Origin: Heloderma charlesbogerti
Lineage: Eukaryota > Chordata > Lepidosauria > Squamata > Helodermatidae
DNA length: 64,000 nucleotides
Direction: 5' to 3'
NCBI GenBank assembly: GCA_026122225.1
Contig: JANEZZ010002240.1
Coordinates: forward strand, 1,302,001-1,366,000
Both the position numbers and the translations under genes were made by a program. The notes under the pieces were generated by a model, which was given only the letters and a program-made list of their open reading frames with translations, was not told the DNA's origin and searched no databases. Numbering within the stretch: position 1 is the stretch's first letter; the number at the start of each line of letters is the position of its first letter. Shown one piece after another: positions 3,931-64,000 of the stretch.

Positions 3931-4835
3931 TAGGGATGTACAAAAATTCCGCCATGGATCTTGGGGAGGCCGAATGCCAGCACATTCGGCCCCCTGAAAT
4001 CGGTGGTGGAACGGCCTGCCACCCCCCCCCCGCCACCCCCCTGGGACGAGACTTACCTTGGGCGGATCTTCCTGGCGGCGGCGGCTCCCATGGCGGCTCC
4101 AGCGGTGGTTCGGTGGCAGCGGCAGCCGGTCATCTGACCAGCTGCCGCCACCACCATTTCCTGTTTTTTTTAAAAAAAAAAAACGTGATAGGCTACGTAA
4201 AGATTTACGTAGCCTATCATGGCTGACTTTTTAAAACAAAAAACAAAAATGCGCGTACGCAAATGGCGGTGGCCATGGCCGCCGCCATTTGCGTTCCTTA
4301 TTTTGGCACATCTTAGTCTACGTAAACATTTACGTAGACTAAGACGGCGAAAATAAGGGGAACGCAAATAGCGTAGCATCTACGCTATTTGCATTCCCCT
4401 TATTTTCACCGTCTTAGTCTACATAAATGTTTACGTAGACTAAGACGTGCCAAAATAAGGAAGGCAAATGGCGGCGGACACGGTCAACGCCATTTGCATA
4501 CGTGCGGTTTTTTGTGGGTTTTTTAGTCAGTCATGATAGGCTACGTAAACATTTATGTAGCCTATCACGGCTGACTGCAGGGACGCAAATGGCAGCGGCT
4601 ATGGCCGCCGCCATTTGCATCCCTGCTAGCCAGCGGCCGGATGTCTGGCTGCTGGCGGAGCTGGACGGCGGCTCCACAAAATCCCTGCGGAGCACAGCCA
4701 GCCAGCCAGAATTCCAGGGGGGAGGTATGGAGTGCCTCCCCCCCCCCAGCGAGGATTCCAGAGGGAGGGACGGAGCGCCTCTCCCCCAACCATAAACATA
4801 ATCGGCGAAAGGTAAGTACCTGTCGTACATCCCTA
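3931..4835. mobile_element. hAT hairpin-array element, type 1 (copy A), complete
   Basis: 905 bp. Tips TAGGGATGTAC and GTACATCCCTA. Perfect 8-bp direct repeat CTAAACGC at 3,923-3,930 and 4,836-4,843, so hAT. Outer arms hold GGCCGAATGCCAGCACATTC and GC-rich DNA. The interior is a chain of short palindromes in nearly mirrored order: P1 (half TGATAGGCTACGTAAA) at 4,185-4,221, P2 (half ACGCAAATGGCGG) at 4,255-4,293, P3 (half TAGTCTACGTAAA) at 4,314-4,341, a central AT palindrome at 4,361-4,398, P3 at 4,415-4,442, P2 at 4,465-4,498, P1 at 4,531-4,571, then an extra P2 at 4,583-4,622. AAGGTAAGT lies in each arm facing outward (4,809-4,817; complement near 4,052). No transposase frame. Confidence 0.9.
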
Positions 4836-14593: not shown

Positions 14594-15008
14594 TAGGGCT
14601 GTATGGAGTTTGGATGTATGGATCCAAGGGATGTCCCTATGAAGGACAAGGGATGGTGTATGGATGTATACACCAAGTTTGGGTGTATGGATCCATGTAT
14701 GGGGATGTATGGAGTTTTGATGTATAGATCCAAGGGGTGTATGGAGTTCCATAGGGATGTATGGAGGTTTGGATGTGTAGGATGTATGGAGTTGTATAGG
14801 GATGTATAGGGATGTATGGAGGATGTATAGGGATGTATAGTTGGATGTATAGGGATGTATGGAGTTTGGATGTATGGATCCAAGGGATGTCCCTATGGAT
14901 GTCCAAGGGATGTCCCTATGAAGCATAGGGATGTATGGAATTTGGATGTATGGATCCATGTATGGATCCAGCATAGGGATGTATGGAGTTTTGGATGTAT
15001 GGAGTTCG
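14594..15008. repeat. Minisatellite made of hAT left-tip units
   Basis: At least ten degenerate units of TAGGGATGTATGG plus AGTTTGGATGTATGGATCCA follow each other, with variants TGTATAGGGATGTATAGGGA and short inversions (GGATGTCCCTAT). Each unit begins with the transposon tip motif. One copy (14,921-14,936) reads ATGAAGCATAGGGATG, carrying 7 bases of the CTGAAGCA target duplication in front of the tip. The reverse-strand Pro/His/Ile/Tyr-rich frames across this array are artefacts. Confidence 0.85.
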
Positions 15009-15351
15009 ATAAATCAATTCCGTCTGGGTTTCATGGATTGTCACACATCTTTCATTCCATTTCCTGCACATTGATGGAATCGGATATTTTTTAGGGATGT
15101 ATGAGGAGTTTGTCCCATGTGCTCAAGTGTGCATTAATGCCAATGTGCTTTAGTGCAAGAGTGCATAAGTGCTAATGTGCATTAGTACAAATGCAAATTT
15201 GTCCAATCCCCAAAGTAAAAAAACAACAATAGTTCACATGTCCACAGAATCCATGCAACTTGGAAAAAGTGATCCACTACAGAACCTGCAGGTTGGATTC
15301 AGAGAAATCTGAACTCATTTGAATCCATTGCAGATTTCTCCAACATCCCCA
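14594..15351. mobile_element. hAT MITE, type 3 (copy P), with expanded left tip
   Basis: Left tip TAGGGCTGTATGG, right tip ending CAACATCCCCA. A perfect 8-bp direct repeat CTGAAGCA flanks it (14,586-14,593 and 15,352-15,359). From about 15,005 rightwards it parallels the complete copy at 30,212 (CCGTCTGGGTTTCATGGATT; TCATTCCATTTCCTGCACAT; right arm CAGATTTCTCCAACATCC). The left ~400 bp are not typical interior but a tandem array of the tip itself, described separately. Confidence 0.8.
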
Positions 15352-15850: not shown

Positions 15851-18128
15851 CCCCTCCGCAGGGGTGGAGGACCCATTAAAATGGTCCGCCCCAGGCGTCT
15901 TATGGATCCAAATGGATTCCTGAACGCGCTTGGGGATTCTCTGGGGCATGCCAACGGCCACTCGGTCGAGACCCTGGTGGGTGGCTGGAATGCCGCAATC
16001 ACTGGGGCATTAGATCGGGTGGCTCCGAAACGCCCTCTCCCCCTGAACAGGGCTCGGACTGCACCATGGTTCAATCCGCGGTTAGGAGCTCTGAAACAGG
16101 AGGTGAGACGGCTAGAGCGCCGTGGCGGAAGTCTCGCTCCAAAGACGATCAGACACGGGCTAGAGCTGTATCTTCAGCCTATCACGTGGCGGTGAAGGCA
16201 GCAAAAAAGGAATATTATGCTGCCTCCATCGCGTCTGCAGAGTGCTGCCCCAGGAGGCTGTTCCAAGTGGTCCGGAGCCTGGTCGGTCCTGTGGCTCCGG
16301 AACCACTGGAGCATTCTAAGGCCTCCTGTGAGGCTTTGGCAAGGCACTTTGCAGATAAAATTGATCAGATTAGGTGTGTTACTCTGCACACTGTGGATAC
16401 AGTTAGTGAGCAAGAGGCGGCCTGTGGCAAACCAGTTTTGTGGGATCGGTTCCAGCTTCTTCCTCCTGATGAAGTGGACAAGGTGCTTTCATCTGTAAGG
16501 CCGACCACCTGCTTACTTGATCCTTGCCCATCTTGGCTCATTATGAGCTGCAGAGAGAGACTGGGTGAGGGGATCAAGGCGGTGGTGAACACCTCCCTTG
16601 AGGAGGGAGTGATAAGACCACTCTTAAAGAAGCCCTCCTTGGATCCTCAAGTTCTGAACAACTTTCGCCCAGTCTCAAATCTGCCATTTTGGGGCAAGGT
16701 GATTGAGCGGGTGGTGGCGGTGCAGTTGAAGGCACACTTGGAAGAAACTGATTATCTAGACCCATTTCAGTTGGGCTTCAGGCCTGGGCATGGGACAGAA
16801 ACGGCCTTGGTCGCCTTGGTGGATGATATGAGGAGGGCTCTGGATAGGGGTGAATGCTCCTTCCTTGTTCTCCTCGACCTCTCAGCGGCTTTTGATACCG
16901 TTGACCACGGTATCCTCCTGGACCGCCTGGAGGGGTTGGGCATTGGAGACACTGTATTGCAGTGGTTCCGGTCCTTCCTCTCCGGCAGGTACCAGAGGGT
17001 AGCACTGGGAGAGGAGGTTTCGGACCCGTGGCCACTTACTTGTGGGGTGCCACAGGGTTCCATCCTCTCCCCGATGCTATTTAACATCTATGTGAAGCCA
17101 CTGGGGGCTATCATCAGGAGGTTTGGGGTGCAGTGTCATCAATATGCGGATGACACGCAGCTCTACCTCTCATTCAAATCTTCACCAAGGTTGGCCGTAG
17201 AATCCCTGTCCAAATGTCTGGAGACGGTGAGTGGCTGGATGGGGAGGAATAAGCTGAAGCTCAACCCTGACAAGACTGAGGTACTTTTGGTGGGAGACAA
17301 GAGGAGGCTGGGGGATGTTGACCTGGTGTTGAATGGGGTACGGCTACCCTTGAAAGACCAGGTCCGCAGCCTGGGGGTCATTTTGGACTCCCAGCTGTCC
17401 ATGGAGGATCAGGTGTCAGCTGTGAGCCGGACAGCGCTGTATCAACTCCATCTGATACGGCGGCTGCACCCCTTCCTTCCCGACCATCTGCTCTCATCGG
17501 TAGTACATGCCCTGGTCTCCTCTCGTTTAGACTACTGTAATGCGCTGTACGTGGGGTTACCCTTGAAGATGGTTCGGAAGCTGCAGCTGGTACAGAATGC
17601 GGCGGCTCGCCTGATTAAAGGCAGCCGCCGGTGAGATCACATCACTCCAGTGCTGAAGGAGTTGCACTGGTTACCAGTTGTTTTCTGGGCCAAATTCAAG
17701 GTGTTGGTTTTGACCTTTAAAACCCTATATGGTTCCGGCCCAGCCTATCTTAAGGAGCGCCTCCAGCAACACCAGACAGGCTGCTTAACAAGATCAGCCT
17801 CGGATGGCCTTCTCTCTGTCCCATCAGCCAGGACAGCTAGACTGGTGGGGACGAGGGAGAGGGCCTTCTCTGTGGTGGCCCCCACTCTGTGGAACTCCCT
17901 CCCTAGGGAACTCCGTCATGCCCCCTCTTTAATGAGCTTCCGTCGTGCATTAAAAACGTGGTTGTTCAGGCAGGCATTTGGGGTGGGTTAGGGTATTTTA
18001 AAAAAAAAAATTATGGTAAAATTTTATTGTTTTAAATTGTTTTATGGTGGGTTGTACATCGCCCAGAGTGGCTGGGTGACCAGTCAGATGGGCGATTAAT
18101 AAATATAATAAATAAATAAATAAATAAG
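15850..18128 (+). mobile_element. L2-type non-LTR retrotransposon, 5'-truncated (copy 1)
   Basis: Carries the RT part of ORF2, a 3' UTR with the ATCGCCCAGAGTGGCTGG stem-like region and a terminal run of (AATA)n at 18,098-18,127. The endonuclease domain and 5' UTR are absent. The tail style (GGGCGATTAATAAATA, AAATAAAT repeats) and the C-terminal protein words (HITPVLKELHWLPV, SRLDYCNALYVGLP) fit the L2/CR1/Rex1 branch; I prefer L2 but cannot prove the clade without a tree. Confidence 0.85.
15856..17991 (+). pseudogene. L2-type ORF2 remnant: linker, reverse transcriptase, C-terminal domain
   Basis: The encoded protein would copy element RNA into DNA at the insertion site. The frame opens upstream (PIKMVRPRRLMDPNGF) and shifts near 16,122, where RRLERR should run into WRKSRSKDD. 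From 16,066 a single frame runs to a TGA at 17,632-17,634, then continues in the same frame to 17,991 (HITPVLKELHWLPV to KTWLFRQAFGVG). Counting from the ATG at 16,066, the RT motif LLDLSAAFDTVDH lies around residue 270, GVPQGSILSP around 327, and the catalytic YADD at 360-363; all look intact. Compared with copy 2 about 7 residues are missing in frame between EEGV and IRPLLKKP. Few lesions imply a fairly young copy, but it is dead as a source because the 5' part is gone. Confidence 0.85.
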
Positions 18129-19216: not shown

Positions 19217-19618
19217 TAGGGATGCTGGAGAAATTTGAGATAAACTAAAACGAGCTTGGATTTCTAAGAATCTGACCTGCGGAATCCACTGTTGAGCGAC
19301 CCCCTCAGGCTATGCAGAGTCTATGGACTTTTGGATTTTATTTTTTATTTTTTTACTTTCCTGAAAATTACGCTTATTCATTTGTAGGAAAATCCATATG
19401 TTTCTGCTGAGCAAACGTTGAATGGAATGGGGGACAAGTACGCTAAACGTTACGTACTAAGGTAAATTATGTAAATTGTTATGAAGCTCCTTATGTAATT
19501 ATTTGTGTATTTTTCCACATGATGAAAAAAAGAATCACATCCGTCTGTGAGCGGACGATGGAACAAAAGGCACCTGAAACACAGACGTCACAGATTTTAC
19601 ACAGTCCATACATCTCTA
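19217..19618. mobile_element. hAT MITE, type 3 (copy M)
   Basis: 402 bp; tips TAGGGATGCTGG and CATCTCTA. Flanking ATTAACAC and GTTCACAC match at 6 of 8. The right half holds AAAGGCACCTGAAACACAGA and ACAGATTTTACACAGTCCAT, the complement of the left half of copies N and O. The interior has TACGCTAAACGTTACGTAC. Non-coding. Confidence 0.75.
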
Positions 19619-24481: not shown

Positions 24482-25040
24482 TAGGGATGTCATTGACTTC
24501 TGCCACGGATCTCGGTGAGGCCGAATGCCAGTGCATTCGGCCCCCTGAAATCCGTGGCAGAACGAAACTCCCCACCTCCCCACCCACAAAAGGCGCACGA
24601 AACAGGACACCTACCTGCTGCCGTTCGTGCTGCTTTGCGAATGGCAGCCGCATCTTCGGCCGCCATTCGCTTCTTAATTGTAACCGTGATAGGCTATGTA
24701 AATACTTAGGTAGCCTATCACGGCTAATGCAGGGACACCATTTGCGTTCCTGCAGAGGCCGTGATAGGCTATGTAACTATTTACATAGCCTATCACGGGG
24801 AAAAAAAGGGAACGCAAATGGCAGCGGCTGTGGTGGCCGCCATTTGCGTTCCCTTTTTTTTTTTTTGCCTTGATAGGCTGCATAAATAATTACGTAGCCT
24901 ATCACAGCAAAATACAGGGACAGAAATGGCGGCTATGGCGGCTGCCATTTGCGTCCCTGTGCAGGCTGCCCAGCGGCGGCTGGATGTCTGGCTGCGGGCG
25001 GCCCCAGCCGGTGGCTCCGCAGAGTCGCCGTGGATATAAC
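24482..25040. mobile_element. hAT hairpin-array element, type 1 (copy B), right tip lost
   Basis: Left tip TAGGGATGTCATTGACTTC followed by GATCTCGGTGAGGCCGAATG and CATTCGGCCCCCTGAAATCC. Hairpins alternate: P1 24,687-24,722, P1 24,761-24,797, P2 24,810-24,853, P1 24,869-24,907, P2 24,919-24,956. The right end runs into GGTGGCTCCGCAGAGTCGCC and then unique DNA without a CATCCCTA tip. Confidence 0.8.
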
Positions 25041-33068: not shown

Positions 33069-33198
33069 CCTTTTTCTGACATCTTGCCTGATGAAGAGAT
33101 CTGGAGATCTCAAAAGCTTGCACATTTTTGGTGACCTTCAAGTTGGCCTAATAAATGTATTACGCTAACATGAATTTTGGAATTATGGGCATTGTGGA
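31566..33198. other. Unassigned, with two simple repeats
   Basis: (GAAAA)n at 31,922-31,969 and a compound (AGTC)n(TTTC)n(TC)n(AC)n at 32,982-33,066. A region at 32,640-32,800 vaguely resembles an L2-type 3' UTR (TAAGCTGCCTTGAGTGCC) but is too degraded to call. No gene. Confidence 0.5.
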
Positions 33199-33423
33199 GC
33201 AAGCTTATTCTCTCAGTCTCAGAGTGTATCTTGATTGGTGAAACTGATGGTTAAGGGCGTAGGCAAAACTGAACAGCAAGCTTATTCTCTCAGTCTCAGA
33301 GTGTATCTTGATTGGTGAAACTGATGGTTAAGGGCGTAGGCAAAACTGAACAGCAAGCTTATTCTCTCAGTCTCAGAGTGTATCTTGATTGGTGAAACTG
33401 ATGGTTAAGGGCGTAGGCAAAAC
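33199..33423. repeat. 77-bp tandem repeat, three nearly identical units
   Basis: Units start at 33,199, 33,276 and 33,353 with GCAAGCTTATTCTCTCAG, then GTATCTTGATTGGTGAAAC and TTAAGGGCGTAGGCAAAACT. Units 1 and 2 look identical; the third stops after ~70 bp. Confidence 0.95.
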
Positions 33424-34032
33424 AACAGCAACAACATGGTAGAGCTGAGATGCTGGAAGCTGGGAACCAAGAGACAGGACTATGCTGGAGTCAGGAAGCA
33501 TTGTTTGTTAGTTGCTCAGGCAATGCCCCAGCCTAAATATGAAGTATTTATAGCCCTTCCTCTGAGGAGAGACAATGGCTAGTCCTGGTGTGTGGCATCA
33601 TTCTGGTGCCCGGGAACCCTTTACTGTCCAAGGAGACATTCCAACCCATGGATATGGTGGTTCACCACATGAGGCAGCCATGCACAGAAATTCCTGGCTC
33701 AAGCCCCAGCAATTCCTGGCAATCCATGCAGTGTGGAACCAACTTAGGAAACAAAAGATGTGGAGCAGACCACTAGAAAGAGTAGATCAACCTTCCCCAA
33801 TTTGAATGGCCATGCTAGCTGGGGGTGATGGGAGTTGTAGACCAACATAATCCATGGGGGCACCAAGTTGGGTGAGAATGGAGTAGATGAATTCATGGGG
33901 AATAGGTCTATGAATGGAGATAGCTCAGAATGGCATTCTGTGGTTCAAAGCCAGAATATATTTAAAATTCTAGTAGCTGGGAATAAACAGCAGTAGGTGG
34001 CTATCATTAACATCCTGCCCTGCTTATATGAC
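33424..34032. other. Unassigned, with a partial W-family MITE
   Basis: 33,790-33,875 (CAACCTTCCCCAATTTGAAT; GGTGATGGGAGTTGTAGACC; CACCAAGTTGGGTGAG) is a partial W-family palindrome. Rest unique. Confidence 0.5.
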
Positions 34033-34559
34033 TAGGGATGGTATGGATGCCTGACTGGGTCTGGGAGTCCATCAGGCTCCTCGCCTTCCTGTGCCCCCAG
34101 AACACACCCACTGAGCCTCTGGCCTCACTCAACCCACTTTTGTCCTCCTGGACATTCCTCGCACTCACCAGGACCCATCCATGAGCACCCACTATTTTGC
34201 TGAGCTTATTTTTAAGGAAAAAATGGAGGCCATTAAAAATATGCATATTTAAATATGAGCAAATTTGGGCTGGGAAAGCTTGATATATGCAATATTAGAG
34301 GCATAAATGTCCCTTTGCATATATCAAGCTTTCCCAGCCTGAATTTGTGCATATTTAAATACATGCATTTTAATTACCTCCATTTTTCCCATAAAAATAA
34401 GCTTGGCAAAATGGCAGGTGCTCACAGACAGGATCTATGGTGAGTGCGGATGCTTGTCAAGCTTTGGGGGCTCAAGCTGGGTCCGGGACAGCTTGAGCGG
34501 GGGCAACGTTTCAGCGGGCACCCTCCAATACTGGGCGGGGCTGGGTTCATCCATCCCTA
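34033..34559. mobile_element. hAT AT-cored foldback element, type 2 (copy C)
   Basis: 527 bp; tips TAGGGATGGTATGG and CATCCATCCCTA. The right flank CTTATGAC matches the left flank CTTATATGAC if two bases were inserted in the left copy. The core folds back: ATATGCATATTTAAATATGA and GGCTGGGAAAGCTTGATATA mirrored by TATATCAAGCTTTCCCAGCC and GTGCATATTTAAATAC. Donor-like GGTGAGT in the right arm (34,439) and its complement in the left arm (34,164). Confidence 0.8.
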
Positions 34560-35156: not shown

Positions 35157-35678
35157 TAGGGGTGTACAAAACCCCACTAACCTGGCTCCTCTGGGAGCCA
35201 GGGGGGGGGAGGCGATCCAGTCCGCAGAGCCGCCGGCCAGGCCAATCCGCAGAGGGGCCCCCATCAGCTGCCAGGCTGCTGCGGCCGCAAATGGCGTCCT
35301 GCGTAGGGGACGCCATTTGCGTCCCTACACTAGGCCATGATAGGCTATGTATATATTTACATAGCCTTTCACGGCTAAAGCAGGGACACAAATGGTGCCC
35401 CCTACGCCATTTGCGTCCCTGCTTTAGCCGTGATAGGCTACATAAATATTTATGTAGCCTGTCACGGCTACAGCAGGGATGCAAATGGCAGCCACTACGA
35501 TGGCCGCCATTTGCAGCCGCAGCAGCCTGGAAGAACTGGAGCCACTGCTGGAGCCACTGCCAGAGCCGCCGCCAGGTAGGTCTATTCTGGGGATTTCGGG
35601 GGGTGGTGGAGGGGGGTAGTCCGTTCCGCCATGGACTCTGGGGGGTGGAGTCCGTGGCGGAATTCTCCAACATCCCTA
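35157..35678. mobile_element. hAT hairpin-array element, type 1 (copy D), inside L2-type copy 3
   Basis: 522 bp; tips TAGGGGTGTACAAAACCCC and CTCCAACATCCCTA. Flanks TTCCCAAG and TTCCTGAG match at 6 of 8, both differences transitions. Host L2 coding words resume directly after it (GAGGGAAGCTCTGTGGGTGA before; GATGGGTGCATTGCCTGTTC after). Hairpins: P2 35,287-35,324, P1 35,337-35,376, P2 35,387-35,424, P1 35,431-35,467, P2 35,477-35,516. Confidence 0.85.
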
Positions 35679-36160: not shown

Positions 36161-36625
36161 TAGGGATGGCAGAGAATTCCACCATGGACGCCAATGAGGC
36201 CGGATTCTTTAGAATCCCCTGGAGTCCTTGGCGGAGCACTCACCTCCACCTCCCCATGGAATCCATCTGGGTCGGATCCATCTCGGCGTCGATCCTGCGG
36301 AGCTAGCCACCTGCTCCACATCACTGGCAAATGTCGATACAGCTGGCAGCCATTGCTATGCCATATCACTGTGCTAAGTAAGTCTCCAGACGCAAATGGC
36401 TTAGTGGGCGCCATTTGTAGCCGTAAATCTGGTAGATTAGCCTAAAAGCAGCCATTTACGGCTGCATTTAGGTTAATCTACCAGCTTTATGGCCACAAAT
36501 GGTGCCCACTACACCATTTGCATCCCTGTTTTTTGATGTGATAGGCTACACAAATATTTGCATAGCCTATCGTGTCAAAAAACAGGGACGCAAATGGTGT
36601 CCACTATGCCATTTGCATCCCTGTT
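36161..36625. mobile_element. hAT hairpin element (copy E), right tip lost
   Basis: Left tip TAGGGATGGCAGAGAATTCC with GAGGCCGGATTCTTTAGAAT as in copy B2. Palindromes at 36,390-36,422 (CGCAAATGGCTTAGTGGGCG), 36,425-36,489 (around AGCCATTTACGGCTGC with TAGATTAGCC arms), P1-like 36,535-36,578, and P2-like 36,588-36,620. Ends in CATTTGCATCCCTG without CATCCCTA; L2-type sequence follows. Confidence 0.75.
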
Positions 36626-37317: not shown

Positions 37318-37826
37318 TAGGGATGTGTGAACACACCCCAGCTTGGGTTCTCTGTGTGCCCGCTGAAGTGCCACACCCCCTCGCCCCTCCCGCCCGGACC
37401 TGTGCTCAAGCCCCCAAGAGCTTGGCAAGTCACCCACATTCACCCCATGCCCATTCAATGAGCGCCCACCATTTTGTCATCTCTTTTTTTGGCAGAAAAA
37501 AGGGGGTTTAAAATGCACATATTTAAATATGCACAGTTTGGGGCCGGGAAAGCTTAATATACACAATATTAGAGGCATAATGTCTCTAATATTGTGCATA
37601 TTAAGCTTTCCCAGCCCCAAACTGAGCATATTTAAATATGTGCATTTTTAAACCCCCTTTTTCCACACACAAAAAGGAGGCAAAATGGCAGGCGCTCGCT
37701 GGACAGAGTCGCAGTGAATCCTGGAGGGTGCGAGCAAGGGCAGGGGCTCAGTGGGTGCGGTCCAGGGGTTGCGGGGGGGGAGCTTGATGGACTCCCAGAC
37801 CCAGTCAGGTGCCTGCAACATCCCTA
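37318..37826. mobile_element. hAT AT-cored foldback element, type 2 (copy C2)
   Basis: 509 bp; tips TAGGGATGTGTGAAC and CTGCAACATCCCTA. Flanks CCCAAAGG and CCCACAGG match at 7 of 8. The core is a strong foldback (GCACATATTTAAATATGCAC, GGGAAAGCTTAATATACACA, centre TATTAGAGGCATAATGTCTC). The right arm (GGGTCTGGGAGTCCATCAAG in complement) matches the left arm of copy C, so C2 lies in opposite orientation. Confidence 0.85.
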
Positions 37827-40486: not shown

Positions 40487-42149
40487 TAGAGCTGTGAGCA
40501 CGTGGCCTCTTGAAATTCGGCTAGGGATGGTGGAGAATTTCTCCACGAATCTCCAGGAGGCCGAATGCCAACGCATTTGGCCCCCCGAAATTGTTGGGGA
40601 AATTCTCCGCCACCCCCCACCACCCCCCTGGATGGGACTTACCTCCTTCGAATGTCCCTCTCGGCAGCGGGTCCTGGTGGCATTTCGGCGGCATTTCGGC
40701 GGGGGCGGGGCGGCGGCCGGTCTTCCAACCGGCTGCCGCCACCGCCATTACAAAGTAAAGTTAAAAAAAAAACACGTGATAGGCTACGTAACGATTTACG
40801 TAGCCTATCACGGCTAGATTTCCAAAGTCAGCCGTGATAGGCTACGTATATCGTTACGTAGCCTATCACAGCTGACTTTTTTTGGGGGGGGGAAAGCGTG
40901 TACGCAAATGGCGGCACCCATGGGCGCCGCTATTTGCGTTCCTTATTTGGGCAGGACTATTGCATTGCCCTTATTTTCGCCGTAGTCTACGTAAATCTTT
41001 ATGTAGACTACCCCTGCCCAAATAAGGAACTCAAATGGCGGCGCCCATGGGCACCGCCATTTGCGTACGTGCTTTTTTTTTTCCCAAAGTCAGCCGTGAT
41101 AGGCTACGTAACGATATACGTAGCCTATCACGGCTGACTTTGAAAATCTAGCCATGATAGGCTACGTAAATCGTTACGTAACCTATCACGTTTTTTTTTT
41201 TAACTTTACTTTTTTTATTTCGCAGCCAGGGAGACAGGGCGCTCCCCCCCAGCCTGAATTTCGGCAGCGAGGGATGGGGCACCTCCCCCCCAGCCTGAAT
41301 TTTGGCCGGGAGGGGCGGGCCGCCTCCTCCCCAACAAGAATTTCGGGGGGAGAATCGGAGCGCCTCCCCCCACCACGAAGCAAGCTGCGGGACCAGGCAA
41401 GGGACTTTCATCCATCCTTAGAAATTCTCCACCTTACTTGTGGGCAGAGACATTTAGGAGACAATTTCACCGGATTTCTCCAAGGGGAGGAGAAATTCTC
41501 TGCAGTTTCTCCCAGCTAGGGCTCCCCACTGGCAGAGCTTGTAGCACAGCTTATTTCTTTTTTTCCTAAGGGGTTTGGGAGTTTTTGTGCTGCCACAGCA
41601 TCAACTGTTTTGACAGGCCTGCCCCCATTTTGCACCCCCTGCAACGCAGGAGGTGGCAATGTTGTGTCAGTCTCCAGGGATGAGGTGGACTTGGTGTCCT
41701 GCCAAAATCTGTCCTCCAATTTCCTGAAAGTTTTCTCCCCAATGAAAGAGGCTTCCATTGTTCTGCCTCATTCAGGATGTTTTATAATGTATTTTTGTGG
41801 TGTTTTTGAGCTTATCTGATCACAGGCTGCCTGCATGTCCTGATCTGAAAAAGCCCCAAGGGAGGAATTACCTCATGGTGCCTTAAACTGGGCTTTTATT
41901 GGAGTGTAGGGAGCTGAGGAGGCTACAGGCTGCCAGCGAGATTATTGTAGAATGAAAAACAGGACACTTTTGCTCACTCCTCAGCCACCTCCTAAGTAAG
42001 GTAAGCCCAAGAAACCCAACTCCACCCCCATGAGAATTTCTCCGAAATTTCTTCACCACTGAATTTCTTTTCGAAAGCAATTTCTTTTGTATCAAATTGA
42101 ATGAGAATGGTCCAAAAAAAATGTGGGAGAAATTTTTTGCACAGCAATA
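40487..42149. mobile_element. hAT element with TAGAGCTGTG tips (copy R) inside CR1
   Basis: Left tip TAGAGCTGTGAGCAC, right tip complement TATTGCTGTGCAAA. Perfect 8-bp duplication GTTGAAAC (40,479-40,486 and 42,150-42,157). About 760 bp once the nested copy F is removed. No transposase frame. Repeated words AGGAGAAATTCTCTGCAG, GAGAATTTCTCC and TCTTGAAATTCGG suggest hairpin-prone subterminal DNA. A different hAT lineage from the TAGGGATG group; a tip like it appears at 7,471. Confidence 0.75.
40522..41420. mobile_element. hAT hairpin-array element, type 1 (copy F), nested in copy R
   Basis: Left tip TAGGGATGGTGGAG, right tip degraded to CATCCATCCTTA. The right flank GAAATTCT matches GAAATTCG two bases left of the left tip, a plausible aged duplication. 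Mirrored hairpins: P1 40,776-40,813, P1 40,833-40,871, P2 40,902-40,939, P3-like 40,968-41,011, P2 41,032-41,068, P1 41,095-41,134, P1 41,152-41,190. ACTTACCT at 40,638 is the complement of an outward AGGTAAGT. Confidence 0.85.
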
Positions 42150-43371: not shown

Positions 43372-44800
43372 TGTCAAGGGCTCCTTGGAGGCCTCTCTCA
43401 GTCTAATCCAGTAGCCAAGTCCAGACACAAAGGGATTATTTTCAAAGCTTTATTCCTCTTTTACAACTTAACTCAACTCTACCGTTAGCAACTAGATCTG
43501 AGCAGCAGAGTACCTATGCCCTATGTTGGAACAGTTGGTCCCCGTTTGAATAGGGGTGGACGAAAGTCCCTTACCTGTCCTCGAAGATTTCCCGCGGTGG
43601 GGGGAGGCGCTTCGTTGCTCCCCCCGCGAAGTTCAGGCCGGGGGGGGAGGCTTCCCGCCTCGCCCGGACGAAATTCAGGCCGGGGAGGAGGTGCCTCGCC
43701 TCGCCCGGCCGCGAACTAAACAGTTAAAAAAAAAAAAAAAACGCCCCCGTGATAGGCTACGTGACGATTAACGTAGCCCATCATGGCTAGATCTGCAAAG
43801 TCAGCCATGATAGGCTACGTAAATCGCCACGTAGCCTATCAAGGGTGACTTTTTAAAAAAAAGCTCGTACGCAAATGGCGGCCCCCATAGGGAGCCACCA
43901 TTCGCATTCCTTATTTGGTCGCTGTAGTCTACGTAAATCTTTAGCGTTGCCCTTATTTTCGCCGTAGTCTACGTAAACATTTACGTAGACTACAGTGACC
44001 AAATAAGGAACGGGAATGGCGGCTCCTTATGGGGGCCGCCATTATCCGTACGCGCTTTTTTTTTTTTTTTTTTAAGTCACCTGTGATAGGCTAAGTGATG
44101 ATTTACGTAGCCTATCACGGCTGACTTTGCAAATCTAGCCGTGATAGGCTACGTTAATCGTCACGTAGCCTATCACGGGGGCGTTTTTGTTTTTTTTTCT
44201 TTTATTGCAATGGCGGCGGCGGCAGCTGGTCGAAAGATTGGCTGCCGCCCCCGTCCCTGACGAAGACCCGACGAACCGCCAGCCAGACCCGCCGCCGGGA
44301 GGGACATTCGGCAAAGGTAAGTACCATCCCGGGGGGGGTGCAGGGGCGGGGGGGAGAATTTCTCCCTGAAACATGTTCGGGGGGCTGAACACGTTGGCGC
44401 TCGGCCCCCCGAAGTTTCGGGGAGAAATTCTCTGCCATCCCTACGTTTGAAAGGGAATTACTGGCAGACCCCTGAACGTATGGGCTAGGGAGTGTCCCTC
44501 CCCTTTTCCCTTGGATCCTCTGGGCGCAGCCGTTGTTTGCGCACCAACCAGGCACTACGCCTCCTTTCCGCGCCCTCCGTCTGGCACCGCTCTCTGTGTC
44601 GGCGTCGTGCATCCATCAAGTCTGCTTCCCACGCTCTGTCACTCCCAGGACTGCTATCTAAGCTAGGAATGCCAGTGGGAGGAGTCTCCGTCAGCTGTTG
44701 GCCCTGGGAAAAAGGAGTGCACTCCTCTCCCAGGAGCAACTGCTCTTCCTCAGAATCAGAACTACTCTGGGATTCTATGGGCTCAGTGTCCATCCTGACA
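43372..44800 (-). mobile_element. Solo LTR, minus orientation (LTR copy 2), with hAT insertion
   Basis: Ends TGTCAAGGG and CCTGACA with a perfect 5-bp duplication TGCAC (43,367-43,371; 44,801-44,805). About 528 bp without the nested copy G. Parallels LTR copy 3 along its length (GACACAAAGGGATTATTTTC; CAGTTGGTCCCCGTTTGAA; TATGGGCTAGGGAGTGTCCC). The minus-strand open frame 44,485-44,841 starts near the LTR 5' end with an acidic SSSDSEEEQ motif and continues to RRRSAWLVRKQRL. Confidence 0.9.
43551..44443. mobile_element. hAT hairpin-array element, type 1 (copy G), complete
   Basis: 893 bp; tips TAGGGGTGGACG and TGCCATCCCTA with a perfect 8-bp duplication CGTTTGAA (43,543-43,550; 44,444-44,451). 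The uninterrupted LTR copy 3 has GTTTGAA once at the same place, so both boundaries are confirmed by an empty site. Mirrored hairpins: P1 43,749-43,785, P1 43,806-43,842, P2 43,869-43,906, P3 pair around 43,925-43,993, P2 44,015-44,049, P1 44,082-44,120, P1 44,138-44,177. AAAGGTAAGT at 44,309-44,318 faces outward. Confidence 0.95.
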
Positions 44801-46661: not shown

Positions 46662-47271
46662 TAGGGGTGTACGAAACCCCACTTACCTGGCTCTGCCAGG
46701 TTCCACAGGTGGGGGGAGGCAATCCGTTCCTCCCCCCTGGAATCCTGCCCGGCCAGCTCTGCTCCATGGCCAGGCCGTGCAGCCGCAGGCTGGGCCAACC
46801 CGCAGCGGGGCCTCCAGCCGCTACTGGGCTGCTGCGGACGCAAATGGTGTCCTGCGTAGGGGACGCCACTTGCGTCCCTACACAAGCCTGTGATAGGCTA
46901 CTTAAATATTTACATAGCCTGTCACGGCTAAAGTGGGAACGCAAATGGCGTAGGGGACGCCATTTGCGTCCCTGCTTTATCCGTAATAGGCTACGTAAAT
47001 ATATACGTAGCCTATCACGGGCCGACGTAGAGACGCAAATGGCGGCCGCTATGACAGCTGCCATTTGCGACCACAGCAGCCTGGCAGTGGCCAGAGCTGC
47101 TCCCACTGGAGCCGCCGCCGGAGCCACAGCCGCAGCCAGGTAGGCTCCATTTCGCGGGGCTTTCGCGGGGTGGTAGGCCAGGGGGCTCCATTCTGCCATG
47201 GATTCCAGGGGGCCGAATTCACTGGAATTCGGCCCCCCTGGGATCCATGGGGGAATTCTCTAACATCCCTA
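46662..47271. mobile_element. hAT hairpin-array element, type 1 (copy H), complete
   Basis: 610 bp; tips TAGGGGTGTACG and TAACATCCCTA; perfect 8-bp duplication AGAATATT (46,654-46,661; 47,272-47,279). Hairpins: P2 46,838-46,876, P1 46,890-46,927, P2 46,939-46,974, P1 46,983-47,021, P2 47,033-47,069. The left arm carries ACTTACCT (complement of AGGTAAGT) at 46,682. Very close to copies D and K in arms. Confidence 0.95.
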
Positions 47272-48689: not shown

Positions 48690-49075
48690 CCCCCAATTTA
48701 CAAAATAGAGCATTCAGTTTTTGAAAATATTTGCTAGGTATAGATAGAGGAATCCTATATATAACATAAACTATCTGAGGTATAATATTCATCTTGAATG
48801 TATTTACCTTACCCCACCCCAAAATTTATGAAACAGAGCACTGAGTTTTTTGGGGGGGAAATGCCAGGTATAGGTAGAAGCATCCCATGTATAACATAAA
48901 CAATCTGAGGTATAATATTCATCTTGAATGTATTTACCTTACCCCACCCCAAAATTTATGAAACAGAGCATTGAGTTTTGGGGGAAAAAATGTCAGGTAT
49001 AGATAGAAGAATCCCATGTATAACATAAACAATCCAAGGTATAATATTCATCTTGAGTGTATTTACCTTACCCCA
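48690..49075 (-). repeat. ~130-bp tandem triplication inside the L1-like ORF2
   Basis: GGTATAATATTCATCTTGAA recurs at 48,778, 48,909 and 49,038, each with upstream AACATAAAC and CAGGTATAG words and downstream ACCTTACCCCA. Units are similar but not identical, so the duplications are not very recent. They repeat the codons for the KMNIIPQIVYVIYG block. Confidence 0.85.
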
Positions 49076-49324
49076 CAAACTCAACTATAAAGATGTCATC
49101 TATCCCATGAGATCTCATTAATCAACTTATTCAAATTTAGCTTGATTATTTCAGAGATGTCTCTGGGAATATGTATTCCAAAATAAGTAATAAGATCTGA
49201 GCACCACTGAAATCACCAGTTAGCGAATACGCTATGAGATATACGTAGTATCTCCCATCGGCATCAAGTTCAGACTTTGATCAGTTAATTGAATAGCCAG
49301 ACAAATTACCAAAAGTATTGATCA

Positions 49325-51179
49325 ACTGCTCAGATTCGTCATGAATTGGACACCACCATTAATGCAGTTCCATTGGTAGAGGCGTTCAGAGCACCGTCTG
49401 GTCCAGTTTTATTGGATGAGTTTCAGTTACTGAGGCCTGAGGATGCGGACAAGGTGCTTGGCCAAGTCCGATCGACCACTTGTGTGCTTGACCCTTGCCC
49501 TTCATGGCTTATTAAATCAAACAAGGAGGGGTTGTCCGGCTGGGTCCAGGAGGTTGTAAAGTCCTCCTTGAGAGAGGGAGTGGTGCCTGCTGCTTTAAAA
49601 GAGGCAGTAATTAGACCACTCCTGAAAAAGCCTAACCTGGACCCAGAGGATGTTAACAATTATAGGCCAGTGGCCAACATCCCCTTCCTGGGCAAGGTGC
49701 TTGAGCGGGTGGTTGTAGGACAGCTCCAGGCACTCTTGAATGAAACGGATTATCTAGATCCATTTCAATCGGGCTTCAGGCCTGGTTTTGGAATGGAAAC
49801 TGCCTTGGTTGCCCTGTGGGATGACCTCTGCTGGGAGAGGGACAGGGGAAGTGCGACCCTGTTGATTCTCCTGGACCTCTCAGCGGCTTTCGATACCATC
49901 GACCATGGTATCCTTCTGGATAGGTTGTCTGGGTTGGGAGTTGGAGGCACTGCACTACAGTGGTTCCGCTCCTACTTGGATGGCCGATTCCAGAAGGTGG
50001 TGCTGGGGGATTATTGCTCTGTGCCATGGCAATTGTGCCATGGGGTTCCACAGGGCTCTATTTTATCCCCCATGCTGTTTAACATCTACATGAAACCGCT
50101 GGGGGAGGTTATCCGGAGGTGTGGGCTGAGGTGCCATCAATATGCGGATGACACCCAGCTCTACCTCTCTTTCTCATCAAAACCAGGTGAGGCAGTGGCT
50201 GTTCTGAACCAGTGCCTGGGCACGGTAATGGACTGGATGAGGGCTAATAAACTGAAACTCAATCCAGACAAGACGGAGGTACTGTTAGTGGGTGCTTCGT
50301 CTGCCCAGCTAGGTGATATTCAACCTGTTCTGGAAGGGGTTGCACTCCCCCTAAAGGATCAGGTTCGTAGTTTGGGGGTGGTCTTGGATCCAGAACTGTC
50401 ACTTGAGGCACAGGTCAACTCAGTGGCACGGAGCACTTTTTATCAGCTTAGGCTGGTATACCAACTACGCCCTTATCTGGACAGAGATAGCCTAGCTACA
50501 GTTATCCATGCTCTGATAACTTCTCATCTGGATTACTGCAATGCGTTATACGTGGGGCTGCCTTTGAAAACGGTCCGGAAACTTCAGCTGGTCCAAAACA
50601 GGGCAGCAAGATTGTTAACAGGGACTGGCCTGCGAGCTCATATTACGCCAGTACTTTTCCAGCTGCACTGGCTGCCAGTCCATTTCCGGGCCCGATTCAA
50701 AGTGCTGGTGTTAACATTCAAAGCCCTTAACGGCTTGGGGCCAGGTTACCTGAAGGATCGCCTCCTCCCATATGTGCCTGCCCGGACCTTAAGATCATCA
50801 TCAGCGGCCCTTCTCCGTGAGCCCCTGCCAAAGGAAGTGAGGCGGGTGGCTACTAGGAGGAGGAGGGCTTTTTCTGTTGTGGCACCCCGGCTCTGGAATG
50901 AGCTCCCTAGTGAGGTTCGCCTGGCGCCTACATTGTACTCCTTTCGGCGCCAGGTGAAGACCTTTTTATTTTCCCAGGCATTTTAGCTTTCTAAATTTTT
51001 ATCTTTGCTGTTTTAAATCTGTATTTTAAACTCCTGTACTGCTGCTAGATTTTATTGTGGTTGTATTGTTATATTGTGGTTTTAATGTTCTATATATTTT
51101 AAATTGTTTTATTGTGTGTTGTTTGGTTTTAGTTTTTGTGAACCGCCCAGAGAGCTTCGGCTATTGGGCGGTATAGAAA

Positions 51180-52644: not shown

Positions 52645-54293
52645 ATGTAGGATCACTGCCTTGTTGTGGCGAAGGGGCTTGCGTAACTCAGTGAAGCCAT
52701 AAGCTATGCTGTGCAGGGCCACCCAAGACGGACAGGTCATGGCAGAGAGTTCTGACAAAATGTGGTCCACTGGAGAAGGAAATGGCAACCCACTCCATAT
52801 TCTTGCCAAGAAAACCCCATGGAACATATCACAAGGCTAAAAGATATGACACTGGAAGATGAGCCCCTCAGGTCGTAAGGTGTCCAATATACTACTGGGG
52901 AAGAGCAGAGGGAATTTCCAAGTACGCCAGAAAGAGTGAAGCGGCTGGGCCAAAGCCAAAAGGACACTCAGCTGTGGATGTGTCTGGTGGTGAAAAGAAA
53001 GTCCGATGCTGTAAAGAACAATATTGTTTAGGAACCTGGAATGTCAGATCAATGAATCAAGGTAAGCTGGAGGTGGTCAAACATGAGATGGCAAGATTGA
53101 ACATCGACATCTTGGGAATCAGCGAACTAAAATGGACAAGCATGGGTGAATTTAATTCAGGTGACCATTATATCTACTACTGTGGGCAAGAATCCCTTAG
53201 AAGAAATGGAGTAGCACTCATAATCAACAAAAGGGTGGGAAAAGCAGTACTGGGGTACAATCTTAAAAATGATAGAATGATCTCAGTACGAATCCAAGGC
53301 AAACCATTCAACATCACAGTAATTCAAGTCTATGCCCCAACCACTGAGGCCGAAGAAGCTGAGGTTGATCGGTTCTATGAAGACCTACAACACCTTCTAG
53401 AACTAACACCAAAAAAGATGTCCTCTTCATCATGGGGATTGGAATGCTAAAGTAGGAAGTCAAGAAATCACTGGGATAACAGACAAGCATGGCCTTGGTG
53501 TACAAAATGAAGCAGGACAAAAGCTAATAGAGTTTTGCCAAGAGAACACGCTGATCATAGCAAACACTCTTTTCCAACAGCACAAGAGGCGACTCTACAC
53601 ATGGACATCACCAGATGGTCAATCTCGAAATCAGATTGATTATGTACTTTGCAGCCAAAGATGGAGAAGCTCTATACAGTCAGTAAAAACAAGACCTGGA
53701 GCTGACTGTGGCTCAGATCATGAGCTTCTTATTGCAAAATTTCAGCTTAAATTGAAGAACGTAGGGAAATCCACTAAACCATTCAGGTATGACCTAAATC
53801 CTATCCCTTATGAATATACAGTGGAGGTGAGGAATAGATTTCAGGGATTAGACCTGATAGACAGAGTGCCTGAGGAACTATGGATGGAGGTCCGTAACAT
53901 TGTTCAGGAGGCAGCAACTAAATCCATCCCAAAGAAAAAGAAATGCAAGAAAGCAAAGTGGCTGTCTGATGAGGCTTCACAAGTAGCTGAGGAAAGAAGG
54001 GAAGCGAAAAGCAAGGGAGAAAGGGGAAGATATATCCAAGTGAATGCAGATTTCCAGAGAATAGCAAGGAGAGACAAGAAGGCCTTCTTAAATGAACAAT
54101 GCAAAGAAATCGAGGAAAACAATAGAATGGGAAAGACTACAGATCTCTTGAAGAAAATCGGAGATCTCAAGGGAACGTTTTGTGCAAAGACGGGCATGAT
54201 AAAGGACAAAGAAGGCAGGGACCTAACAGAAGCAGATAATGCTAAGAAGAGGTGGAAAGAATACACAGAAGAACTATACAGGAAAGATCTTAA

Positions 54294-54338
54294 TCTTTAA
54301 GATCTTAATCTTTAAGATCTTAATCTTAAACAATGGAA
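54294..54338 (+). repeat. GATCTTAATCTTTAA tandem triplication at the CR1 junction
   Basis: Three copies of GATCTTAATCTTTAA (the last shortened to GATCTTAATCTTAAA) lie where the BovB codons GAT CTT AAT should run straight into GTCCCTGAT. The host DNA has been multiplied at the insertion edge. Confidence 0.85.
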
Positions 54339-54511
54339 CCAATTACCTAGGGAGGTGGTGAGCTCTCCCACACTGGAGGCATTCAAGACGAGGCTGGACA
54401 GGCATCTGTCAGGGATGCTCTGACTTGGATTCCTGCATTGAGCAGGGGGTTGGACTTGATGGCCTTGTAGGCCCCTTCCAACCCTACTATTCTATGATTC
54501 TATGATTCTAT
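54327..54511 (+). pseudogene. CR1 LINE 3' tail inside BovB
   Basis: ACAATGGAACCAATTACCTA, GGAGGTGGTGAGCTCTCCCA, GAGGCATTCAAGACGAGGCT, ATTCCTGCATTGAGCAGGGG and the terminal TTCTATGATTCTATGATTCT match the CR1 end at 9,180-9,352 in the same orientation. It inserted after the BovB, so this CR1 lineage was active later. Confidence 0.9.
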
Positions 54512-57109: not shown

Positions 57110-57991
57110 TAGGGATGCACGAATCCCTTACCTTGCTCTGCTGAGGGGCATCCACAGTGGGGGGGAGGCGCTCCATCCCTCCCCCCGGAATCCTGCCTGG
57201 ACGGCTCCACTCCACAGCCAAGCCGCAGAGCCATCGGATGGCTCTGGATGGCTGCAGCTGGACATCTGGCCGTTGGGCAGCCCTGCAGGGACGCAAATGG
57301 TGGCTGTCGTAGCCGCCGCCATTTGCGTCCCTGTATTGAGCCGTGATAGGCTATGTAAATATTTACATAGCCTATCACAGCAGGGGGAAAAACCCCAGCG
57401 TACGCAAATGGTGGCGGCTACCGCCATTTGCGTACAGTGGGTTTTTTTCCCCCTGCCGTGATCAGCTACGTAAGTATTTATGTAGCCTATCACGGCATGG
57501 GGGAAAAAAAAAATTCCCCCTGCTGTGATAGGCTACGTAAATACTTACGTAGCCGATCACGGCAGGGGGAAAGAAACCCCAGCATACGCAAATGGCGGTA
57601 ACTGCCGCCATTTGCGTATGCTGGGGTTTCCCCCCCCTGCCATGATAGGCTATGTAAATACTTACGTAGCCTATCACGGCCTCCATAGGGATGCAAATGG
57701 CATCCCTGCATTAGCCGTGATAGGCTACGTAAGTATTTACATAGCCTATCACGGCTTGAAGAGGAGGAAGCGAATGGCGGTCGCAGGACGGCCGCCATTC
57801 GCAAAGCAGCGCGGACGGGAGCAGGTAAGTGCTCCGTTTCGTGTACCTTTCATGGGGTGGGGGGGCAGGGGCTTCGTTCCACGACGGATTTCAGGGAGCC
57901 GAATGCCAGTGCATTCTCACCGAGATCTCACCGAGTGATCGGTGATCGGTGATCTCACCGAGATCAGTTGCAGAATTCTCTGATATCCCTA
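57110..57991. mobile_element. hAT hairpin-array element, type 1 (copy I), largest array
   Basis: 882 bp; tips TAGGGATGCACGAATCCC and CTGATATCCCTA. Flanks (ATATAATG, GTAGTGCC) do not match, so one end may come from rearrangement. Hairpins in order: P2 57,291-57,330, P1 57,341-57,378, P2 57,400-57,436, P1 57,455-57,495, P1 57,520-57,562, P2 57,583-57,621, P1 57,640-57,680, P2-like 57,690-57,707, P1 57,713-57,754, P2 57,770-57,803. Near the right end a GTGATCGGTGATC repeat (57,934-57,954) has arisen within GATCTCACCGAG. The left arm carries CTTACCTTG, the right arm AGGTAAGT at 57,823. Confidence 0.85.
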
Positions 57992-60647: not shown

Positions 60648-61136
60648 TATTTGCGTTCCCCTTATTTTCGCCGTAGTCTACGTAAATGTTTACGTAGACG
60701 TGTACACGTGCCAAGATAAGGAACGCAAATGGCGGCGCCCATGGGCGCTACCATTTGCATACACGCGGTTTTTTTTTCCACTCGGCCGTGATAGGCTACG
60801 TAAACATTTACGTAGCCTATCACGGTATTTTTTAAAAATCTAGCCATGATAGGCTATGTAAATGTTTATGTAGCCTATCACGTTTTTAGTTTGTTTGTTT
60901 TTTACTGGAAATGGTGGCGGTGGCAGCCGGTCAGAAGACCGGCCGCTGCTGCCGCCGCCGCCGCCAAACCGCTGCCGAACCGCCGCTGGAGCCACCGCCG
61001 CCAGGGACATTCGCATAAGGTAAGTCCCGTCCCAGGGGGACGGGGGTGCAGACCGTTTCGCCACCGATTTCGGGGGGCCGAATGCACTGGCATTCGGCCT
61101 CCCCGAAGATTTGTGGCGAAATTCTCTGACATCCCT
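60648..61136. mobile_element. hAT hairpin-array element, type 1 (copy J), left tip lost
   Basis: Right arm complete: AAGGTAAGTCCCGTCCC (61,017), CACCGATTTCGGGGGGCCGA, TTCTCTGACATCCCTG. Hairpins: P3 60,671-60,699, P2 60,722-60,760, P1 60,786-60,824, P1 60,844-60,882. It starts abruptly in the RTE with CTATTTGCGTTCCCC, the point where copy A has its central palindrome, so about half the element is gone, with part of the host RTE. Confidence 0.8.
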
Positions 61137-61546: not shown

Positions 61547-63500
61547 TAGGGATGTTAGAGAATTCCTCCACTGATCCCAGGGAGGCCAAATTCCAGTGAA
61601 TTCAGCCCCCTGGAATCCGTGGCGGAACGGAGCAACCTGCCCCACCACCCCCATGAAAGCCCCATGAAACGGACCCTACCTGGCTGCAGCTCTGGCAGTG
61701 GCAGCGGCTCTGGTGGCGGCTCCGGTGGTGGATGAAGCGGCGGTGGCAGTGACGGCGGTGGCTCCAGCTGCTGCCAGGCTGCTGCAGCCGCAAATGGTGG
61801 CCATCATAGCGGCCACCATTTGCGTCCCTAGGCCAGCCCATGATAGACTACGTATATATTTACGTAGCCTATCATGACTAAAGCAGGGATGCAAAGAGCA
61901 TCCCCTACACCAGAGCTTTCCAAAGTGTGTGTCGCGACACATTAGTGTGTCGCTGGCAGTGTGTAGGTGTGTCGCGTGAAAATTGTGCGGAAGGGCACCG
62001 TGGAGTTCCCTTACTCATGTTTGCTTCGCTTGGTCCCTCCCCCAGAACTTCCTAAAGCAGCTAATGTTAAAGCAGCTTAGCTGCTAAGGCTTACGTGCTT
62101 TAACTTTAGCTGCTTTAGGATCACGTGGCGCGGGACGCACGTGATTGGCGGTGTTGGAGCGGTACGGCGAGGAGTGTGGTAATGCTGGCTGCACGAGGAG
62201 TGTTGAGAATTCGAAGTTAGCAGAGCAATTAGTCAAGCAATTTGCAATCAGCTAGGGCGAGAGGCTTCCTCATGTCCTTGGTGCAGCTGCAGGGCAGTGG
62301 GGGAGAACAATGGCCCGCTGGACGCCCCCAGAGCAGGGAGGGCTGCGCCGGGCAGGCGAGGAGCTTCGAGCCTGCGCTCCCCAGAAAGGTAAAGGCACAG
62401 GGCGAAGAGAGGGGAAGGGAGGCACTGCCCTGGGAGCAGAGTTCGGCTGACACCGGCATGGAGAAGTGGCAGCGGCCACCAGCCCTGCATGGTTTCGGGC
62501 GTGCCCTTCGCGGACTTCTGAACCGCGCTGCCGCACAGCCAGGCCAAAGTAACACAGAGGTGGAAACACCACCTGGGACTGCACCGAGCAGGCCGTCCGC
62601 CATCTTGGCCAGTCGGAACGGAGCTCAGTTGATTTCTGCCATTTATTTTTATTTTTACTCTGCTGTAATTGTGGATTAACCACCCACTGGCAGTGTACCA
62701 CTGGAGAGTGCTGGAACTGGACTCTGGACATAGGCATTGCAAATATTTACAGCAGTATAGCCTTGTAGTGAGACATATATATTTACACCATTTTTGTTGG
62801 ACTTTTGCTTCTCTACTTCATGTGTTTTTGCAGCTGAGCTCCTACCTGGACCTGGAAATGGTAAGTAGTTATGGGTGTTATTCAACTTTTTAAAATTCTT
62901 GCACATATTAACATACTGTTACTCATAAATGACAACAGTGTATGTTATTATCTTACTGATCATATATTTTTAAAAATATAAATGAAAGGTTTTCATGAGA
63001 TATGTTGTATCCCCATACATTTCATTATTACAATTTATGTATGTGTCCGTATCTCTTATAACGGGTTAGTTTAACCTCTGGTTTGCTAGTAAAACTGAGT
63101 TACCATGTCACAAAATGATGCATGTCTCAAAAGTGTGTCACCAACACAAAAAGTTTGGAAAGCTCTGCCCTACACCATTTGCGTTCCCGCTTTAGCCGTG
63201 ATAGGCTACGTAAATATATACGTAGCCTATCACAGGCCGGCATAGGGACACAAATGGCATCCCCTATGCAGGAAGCCATTTGCGTCCACAGCAGCCCGGG
63301 AGCAGCTGGAGGCCCCGCTGCGGGTTGGCCCGGCCGGTGGCTCCACAGACTGGCCACGGAGTGGAGCCGGCCGGGCAGGATTCCGGGGGAGGAACAAATC
63401 ACCTCCCACCCCATCGAGGATTCTGGGGAGAGGAACGGATCACCTCCCCCCACCTCCGGACCCTAGCAGAGCCAGGTAAGTGGGGTTTCATACACCCCTA
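61547..63500. mobile_element. hAT hairpin-array element, type 1 (copy K), with a second hAT inside
   Basis: Tips TAGGGATGTTAGAG and CATACACCCCTA; perfect 8-bp duplication GTTTCTTC (61,539-61,546; 63,501-63,508) in RTE sequence. About 690 bp without the nested element. Hairpins P2 61,789-61,827 and P1 61,838-61,876 on the left; P1 63,197-63,233 and P2 63,246-63,288 on the right. A central P2 is split by the inner hAT. AGGTAAGT at 63,474 faces outward. Confidence 0.9.
61911..63167. mobile_element. Second hAT family: 1,257-bp element with CAGAGCTTTCCAAA tips
   Basis: Perfect 14-bp terminal inverted repeat CAGAGCTTTCCAAA and perfect 8-bp duplication CCCTACAC (61,903-61,910; 63,168-63,175). Subterminal GTGTGTCGCGACACATTAGT on the left, GTGTGTCACCAACACAAAAA on the right. 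The interior is CpG-rich at 62,140-62,600, and a donor-like ATGGTAAGTAG sits at 62,857, as if the promoter and first exon of an autonomous relative were kept and the transposase lost. The 145-codon plus-strand frame here (62,242-62,679) is overlapped by minus-strand frames of similar length and has no hAT domain, so I do not call it coding. It could belong to one of the tetrapod hAT families known for horizontal transfer, which I cannot verify. Confidence 0.9.
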
Positions 63501-63558: not shown

Positions 63559-64000
63559 TAGGGATGTCAGAGAATTTCGCCACGAATCTTGGGGAGGCCG
63601 AATGCGCTGGCATTCGGCCCCCTGAAATCGGTGGCAGAACGGTCTGCTGCCCCCCCGCCACCCCCGGGCTGGGACGTACCTTGGGCGAATTTTCCTTGCG
63701 GTGGCAGCTTCGGCGGCAGGGCGGCGGCGGCCGGTCTTCCGACCAGCCGCCACCACCGCCATTTCCAGTAAAAAAAACCCAAAAAAGTGATAGGCTACGT
63801 AAAGATTTACGTAGCCTATCACGGCTAGATTTTTAAAAAATACCGTGATAGGCTACGTAAACCTTTACGTAGCCTACCACGGCTGATTTAAAAGAAAAAA
63901 AACCCCGTGCGTACGCAAATGGCGGCGCCCATGGGCGCTGCCATTTGCATTCCTTATTTTGACACGTCTTAGTCTACATAAATATTTACGTAGACTAAGA
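63559..64000. mobile_element. hAT hairpin-array element, type 1 (copy L), cut by window end
   Basis: Left tip TAGGGATGTCAGAG with left flank GTTGCATT (63,551-63,558). Arm with GGAGGCCGAATGCGCTGG and CATTCGGCCCCCTGAAATCG, as in copy A; GTACCTTGGGCG is the complement of a mutated outward AAGGTACGT. Hairpins P1 63,787-63,823, P1 63,843-63,881, P2 63,912-63,950, P3 63,969-64,000. The rest lies outside. Confidence 0.9.

Follow-up and report, generated by a model that had tools for sequence, protein, structure and literature searches.

What kind of unit occupies positions 3931..4835, and how could its interior have come to read as a mirrored row of palindromes? In the window, the whole 64-kb stretch of DNA analyzed here, this unit is one of 11 copies. 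These insertions are short (0.5 to 0.9 kb), non-autonomous, MITE-like hAT transposons with a hairpin-chain core. The core common to all 11 consists of palindromes of three kinds: kind a (P1), made of GTGATAGGCTACGTAAA and its complement; kind b (P2), built around CGCAAATGG...CCATTTGCG; and kind c (P3), TAGTCTACGTAAA. A first-pass annotation had listed 11 starts and three half-motifs. A hairpin core is present at every one of those starts, and the half-motifs do pair into palindromes, of ~24 to 58 bp and longer where neighbors join.

Copies, ends, and target duplications

Copy A (3931..4835, + strand) is complete, with its alpha end at the left, and was recognized by a target duplication (TSD), CTAAACGC, on both sides, by its stems, and by its hairpin order. 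A repeat search placed its inner mirrored core at 4245..4511, with arms at 4245-4376 and 4380-4511 that are 90% complementary. Judged by their alpha and beta ends, copies B (24482..25020), D (36161..36625), E (40522..41420), J (61547..63500), and K (63559..64000) run the same way as A (+ strand), and copies C (35157..35678), F (43551..44443), G (46662..47271), H (57110..57991), and I (60648..61136) run the other way (− strand). Both ends are kept in seven copies (A, C, E, F, G, H, and J), the right end of E being placed by eye. Copy J is split by a nested insertion at 61911-63167; the six two-ended copies without an insertion are 522 to 905 bp long. Four copies are missing an end or extend beyond the window: B and D are without a beta end, and their end coordinates are approximate; I is missing its beta side and has its alpha end at the right, where the alpha-end BLAST match ends at 61136; and K consists of the alpha half alone, the window edge cutting off the rest. 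Copy D contains one stem with 60-nt arms plus further hairpins, and copy H has the longest array.

Short TIRs resembling TAGGGATG/TAGGGGTG lie at both element ends. The alpha end starts with TAGGGATGTCAGAGAATT... and the beta end starts like TAGGGGTGTACGAAACCCCACTTACCT..., and similarity between them is confined to the neighborhood of the TIR. Beyond it, a hairpin around GGCCGAATGCCAGTGCATTCGGCC is particular to the alpha end in most copies, while the beta end continues into different, GC-rich sequence that includes a 41- to 43-bp tandem unit in A, E, and F. Because the two ends are alike near the TIR only, the earlier proposal that the whole element is a larger foldback is refuted; its description as a palindrome made of palindromes applies to the core but not to the element, whose ends differ. 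A classical foldback element was likewise considered and rejected, since the inverted arms do not reach the termini.

Perfect 8-bp duplications flank four of the seven two-ended copies, namely, A, F (CGTTTGAA), G (AGAATATT), and J (outer TSD, GTTTCTTC); across the 224 pairs compared, chance alone would yield 0.085 matches at 7/8 or better. Copy C has a 6/8 duplication, and E and H have none matching at 6/8 or better. The first-pass annotation had assigned perfect duplications to copies that it lettered A, G, H, and K; four were indeed found (at 3931, 43551, 46662, and 61547), and the letters would fit, at a guess, if one extra insertion, such as 25074, had been counted.

MITEs of the hAT superfamily are short and gene-less, with short TIRs and 8-bp target duplications. 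The copies are small, carry TIRs, and have no coding capacity as judged from one core reading frame, which shared words with 645 proteins and had no homologue at an E value of 0.001. No transposase was found with Pfam in ten chosen window frames (of 75 listed), which gave reverse transcriptase and endonuclease domains only. Target sites of hAT subgroups follow the consensus nTnnnnAn (Ac) or nnnTAnnn (Buster); read by eye, none of the four perfect duplications fully fits either consensus.

Order and folding of the hairpins

Strong inverted-repeat stems are concentrated in the copies: 52 occur in their 7,326 bp (the nested insertion of copy J left out) versus 13 in the other 56.7 kb, or 7.1 per kb within copies and 0.23 per kb outside. 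Dinucleotide shuffles of the copies yielded no stem in 19 of 20 runs and one stem in the remaining run, compared with the 52 in the real sequence. In silico single-strand folding, which the first-pass annotation had proposed as a check, placed six cores (mirrored core length, 241 to 522 bp) far beyond their shuffles. The predicted single-strand DNA folds had z scores of −12 to −23 with pairing limited to 75 nt and −16 to −40 with unlimited pairing (25 shuffles per core), and four control stretches (20 shuffles each) ranged from −3.1 to +4.0. The hairpin chain formed under the 75-nt limit retains 59 to 91% of the energy of the unlimited fold. Since both the chain and the long foldback are strong, one strand has two competing predicted folds. 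Together, the target duplications, the stem excess, and the folding bear out the view of the insertions as mobile, hAT-type units with a row of hairpins as their core.

Hairpin number and order vary between copies, as had been claimed. Read from alpha to beta, the order is a b c b' c b a b in copy A, a a b c b a a in copy E, a a b c c(partial) b a a in copy F, and b a b a b in copies C and G; copy H is a long b/a alternation with a-a at its center. The order P1 P1 P2 P3 - P3 P2 P1 P1 reported earlier is exact in neither of its apparent targets, as the copy at 40522 has a single complete P3 and in that at 43551 (copy F) a complete P3 is accompanied by a truncated one. The orders given here follow the sequence itself, as automated calling errs at degenerate units. 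It overlooked a P2 in both F and B as well as the interrupted P2 of J, took the truncated P3 of K for a P1, and partly misread H and D. The hairpin kinds alternate (a b a b ...), and for this reason tandem-repeat scoring picks up C, G, and H as well, with TRF units of 93 to 94 bp in C and G (35310-35488 in C, an ~93-bp tandem of the palindromic unit; 46854-47044 in G) and of 67 and 184 bp in H. Mirrored and tandem orders are hard to separate, because each unit is approximately its own reverse complement.

Other elements combine some of these features. Tam3 of Antirrhinum, an autonomous hAT element, has several hairpin-forming repeats near its ends, whereas hairpins fill the core of the copies described here. 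Foldback elements (FB/TU/Galileo) have long self-complementary arms of repeated units that reach the termini. The copies share with them self-complementary arms made from repeated units but have unlike ends, an 8-bp TSD, and a hAT-like TIR. Palindromes are fragile DNA, and yet many dispersed copies of one nested palindrome persist in this window. The hAT MITEs, including Mar of Drosophila, resemble the copies in being short and gene-less with short TIRs and 8-bp TSDs. In the excerpts of the Mar report considered here, hairpins, palindromes, and secondary structure go unmentioned (PMC3517528), whereas a hairpin row makes up the core of our copies. Among the literature matches listed, none was a hAT MITE with a hairpin-chain core, in line with the earlier annotation. 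Exact hairpin patterns had no match in viral contigs and prokaryote genomes, copy A had no blastn match among phages, and the matches listed for the hairpin letters in paper texts look like chance primer matches.

Symmetry of the core and its possible origin

The two arms of the core appear to have changed together in some copies. Concerted:orthologous:cross columns numbered 6:1:0 for the arms of A and E, 10:0:0 for A and F, and 8:1:0 for E and F, summing to 24:2:0, although three copies make a small sample and the pairwise counts in one subfamily depend on one another. The pattern is retained with CpG-type transitions set aside (5:0:0 for A/E, 9:0:0 for A/F, and 7:0:0 for E/F), with poly-A spacers removed (5:0:0, 8:0:0, and 5:1:0, respectively), and in a longer cut of the E/F arms (7:2:0). 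Without spacers, A, E, and F have 11 distinct concerted columns versus 1 orthologous column. In an arm tree of these three copies, the two arms of each copy pair, with support of 87/91, 70/77, and 97/94, the last alone starred. Concerted change is absent from C, G, and J, with counts of 0:4:6 (C/G), 2:5:3 (C/J), and 0:8:3 (G/J), or 2:17:12 over the three pairs, and the arms within one of these copies are not each other's closest kin. The comparison of C with G leans to a crossed grouping, as if one core had been flipped. Thus, copying between the two core halves seems to have taken place in A, E, and F, and, with concerted arms in these copies and not in C, G, and J, symmetry would have been renewed in one subfamily only. 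If the halves were copied in this way, the element is a natural record of palindrome growth and matching. The lineages with and without matched arm changes also constitute a natural experiment on template-switch renewal versus plain inheritance.

Single hairpins were compared in the same manner. Of 544 non-CpG arm pairs taken from 34 palindromes of type a or c, 452 were unchanged, 70 had a one-sided change, 14 had two-sided matching changes, and 8 had two-sided unlike changes. Mostly one-sided change is as expected of neutral decay after insertion. Five c units account for 11 of the 14 matching changes; c, differing from a by changes matched on both arms, thus has the look of a symmetric a variant. 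In E and in F, neighboring P1 hairpins of one arm have loops that are near reverse complements (AACGATTT versus AAATCGTT type), consistent with duplication by reflection or with inversion of a loop. Seven P2 hairpins of subfamily I, counted with the second P2 of F excluded for an indel, gave 5 concerted columns (all one column), 6 parallel, and 1 cross, with no concert at the hairpin level. The inner arms of P2 matched at 0.60 within a hairpin, 0.62 between hairpins of one copy, and 0.49 between copies, with 6 of the 30 rows mis-registered. A shuffle test, from which 3 of 33 rows lying outside copies were dropped before counting, gave 94 of 157 matches for inner arms, a value reached in 0 of 20,000 shuffles, and 120 of 240 for outer arms, reached in 471 of 20,000. 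This test is no proof, because hairpins of one copy match equally well and because of the mis-registered rows. Arm-by-arm homogenization of single hairpins was therefore dropped as a candidate, as the P2 counts do not show it.

We favor a core built by inverted template switching, with the hAT machinery spreading the result, and would put the chances of this reading at about even. A transposase made elsewhere would recognize the TIRs and end segments and move the whole piece, with the core as a passenger. Inverted DNA copying would grow the core and keep its arms matched, through template switches where replication stalls or while the hairpin-prone core is repaired. Every such event would write a reverse-complement copy of the DNA just read, producing hairpins and mirrored rows and erasing differences between arms. 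Hairpin units may be gained and lost by recombination among the many repeats, giving different numbers per copy; renewal of symmetry would have taken place in the A, E, and F lineages but not in the C, G, and J lineages; and after each insertion the arms would decay mostly one side at a time. Passages of PMC8794818 describe template switching as creating perfect stems, fixing pairing, and inverting loops, and the likeness to the present copies lies in matched changes on both sides of a stem and in loop inversions. Those passages concern stems of RNA genes, whereas here many stems and a larger mirrored core lie inside a transposon. Weighing against inverted copying, founders that were distinct but already symmetric, and then inherited, give the same pattern; the lack of concerted change in C, G, and J, and likewise in single hairpins, also speaks against it, as do the predominance of one-sided arm changes, the weak or missing foldback of four of the seven relatives folded, and the failure to find a transposase in the frames scanned.

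The main rival to inverted template switching, possible in our judgment but doubtful, takes the hairpins as arrays of subterminal transposase-binding sites, with the half-site ACG(T/C)AAA in all three kinds. On the same reading, an internal deletion of a larger parent joined two subterminal arrays, and selection for mobility keeps the sites. Such a joining would account for the mirrored order without copying, and 59 of the 62 ACGYAAA motifs of the window (both strands) fall in the 11 copies; according to PMC4763223, several subterminal repeats lie within hAT ends and modify the activity of the transposase. However, the eight other insertions or candidates with a like TIR contain no ACGYAAA, and a shared transposase would not need the half-site. 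Nor does site selection alone predict the concerted arms of A, E, and F, in which changed columns also lie outside the half-site. A local satellite or assembly artifact is extremely unlikely: C, G, and H do score as tandem repeats, but four copies at separate loci, in both orientations, have perfect TSDs of their own, and the core arms of different copies are 69 to 86% alike. The claim in the first-pass annotation that these are not satellites accordingly stands, in that the units are bounded and four have perfect TSDs, with the reservation that the cores of C, G, and H score as 67- to 184-bp tandems. A plain satellite core was rejected for the same bounded units and four perfect target duplications.

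It is also conceivable, if improbable, that the core functions at the RNA level or serves as a mobile first exon, through two-way transcription and either outward donors joined to host exons or hairpin RNA entering small-RNA pathways. Outward splice-donor-like motifs, scored with a weight matrix, occur at the alpha ends of all 11 copies, 77 to 161 nt from the end (copy A, 4051..4059, − strand, AAGGTAAGT), and at 6 of the 7 beta ends, 16 to 19 nt from the end (copy A, 4809..4817, + strand, AAGGTAAGT, 18 nt from the end), though the two ends are otherwise unlike. Similar outward motifs are found in the relatives at 1881 and 25074. Overall, however, donor-like motifs are hardly denser in the copies (2.56 versus 1.84 per kb), the relatives at 37318 and 14594 are without one at a threshold of 6.5 bits, Rfam gave no match at the gathering score, and the outward motif could instead be a transposase site. 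If the outward donors work, insertions could give neighboring genes new first exons. More speculatively, and with little likelihood, the copies would belong to a group of transposons whose cargo is DNA secondary structure, with nested self-complementarity renewed core-wide while the sequence drifts, sister cores converging, and the donors making the element a mobile two-way exon donor.

Related insertions and neighboring elements

Several other insertions in the window have a like TIR. The one at 1881-2404 is flanked by a near-perfect duplication (AAAGAGCC/AAAGAGCT, 7/8); inside it are two stems, an outward donor, CAGGTGAGT, lies close to the end, and its left end can be aligned to the right end of 37318. 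The insertion at 37318-37826 (duplication, 7/8) forms, with 34033-34559, one second hAT-like family whose members are 70 to 76% alike and lie on both strands; at 37318-37826 this family has CCCAAAGG/CCCACAGG and a long palindromic core holding smaller GCACATATTTAAATATGTGC-like palindromes. A candidate at 14594-15351 has an 8/8 duplication, CTGAAGCA, and TIR-like GGATGTATAGGGATG repeats form a minisatellite in its left part. The position of its left boundary is uncertain, perhaps near 14993, because the alignment to 30212 begins thereabouts. Weaker candidates at 19217, 27605, 30212, and 34033 have 6/8 duplications; seven rows at exactly 6/8 (including 35157, 51942, and 44811) were seen versus 0.86 expected by chance. 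The insertion at 25074 has an alpha end in common with the copies; its right end was not found and was assumed at 25520.

Comparison of the six cores with eight relatives (BLAST, E value of 0.01) gave a sole match of 18 nt, between the core of F and 25074. Of seven relatives folded with unlimited pairing, 25074 (z = −20.4), 37318 (z = −19.6), and 34033 (z = −15.0) form strong foldbacks, 1881 and 14594 are weak, 30212 hardly folds back, and 19217 does not. Since 25074 and 37318/34033 fold strongly, two other kinds of core are palindromic by prediction, which suggests that a tendency to palindromic cores may be independent of any one motif.

The insertion nested in copy J (61911-63167) is itself hAT-like, 1.26 kb long, with the TIR CAGAGCTTTCC and the TSD CCCTACAC at 61903-61910 and 63168-63175. 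Elsewhere in the window, frames with LINE-type reverse transcriptase and endonuclease (Pfam RVT_1 and Exo_endo_phos) lie at 15880-17634, 49322-50986, and 52863-56067. Tandem repeats occur at 33198-33431 (77-bp unit, 3.1 copies, 98% matches) and at 48732-49076 (130-bp unit, 2.7 copies, 91%).
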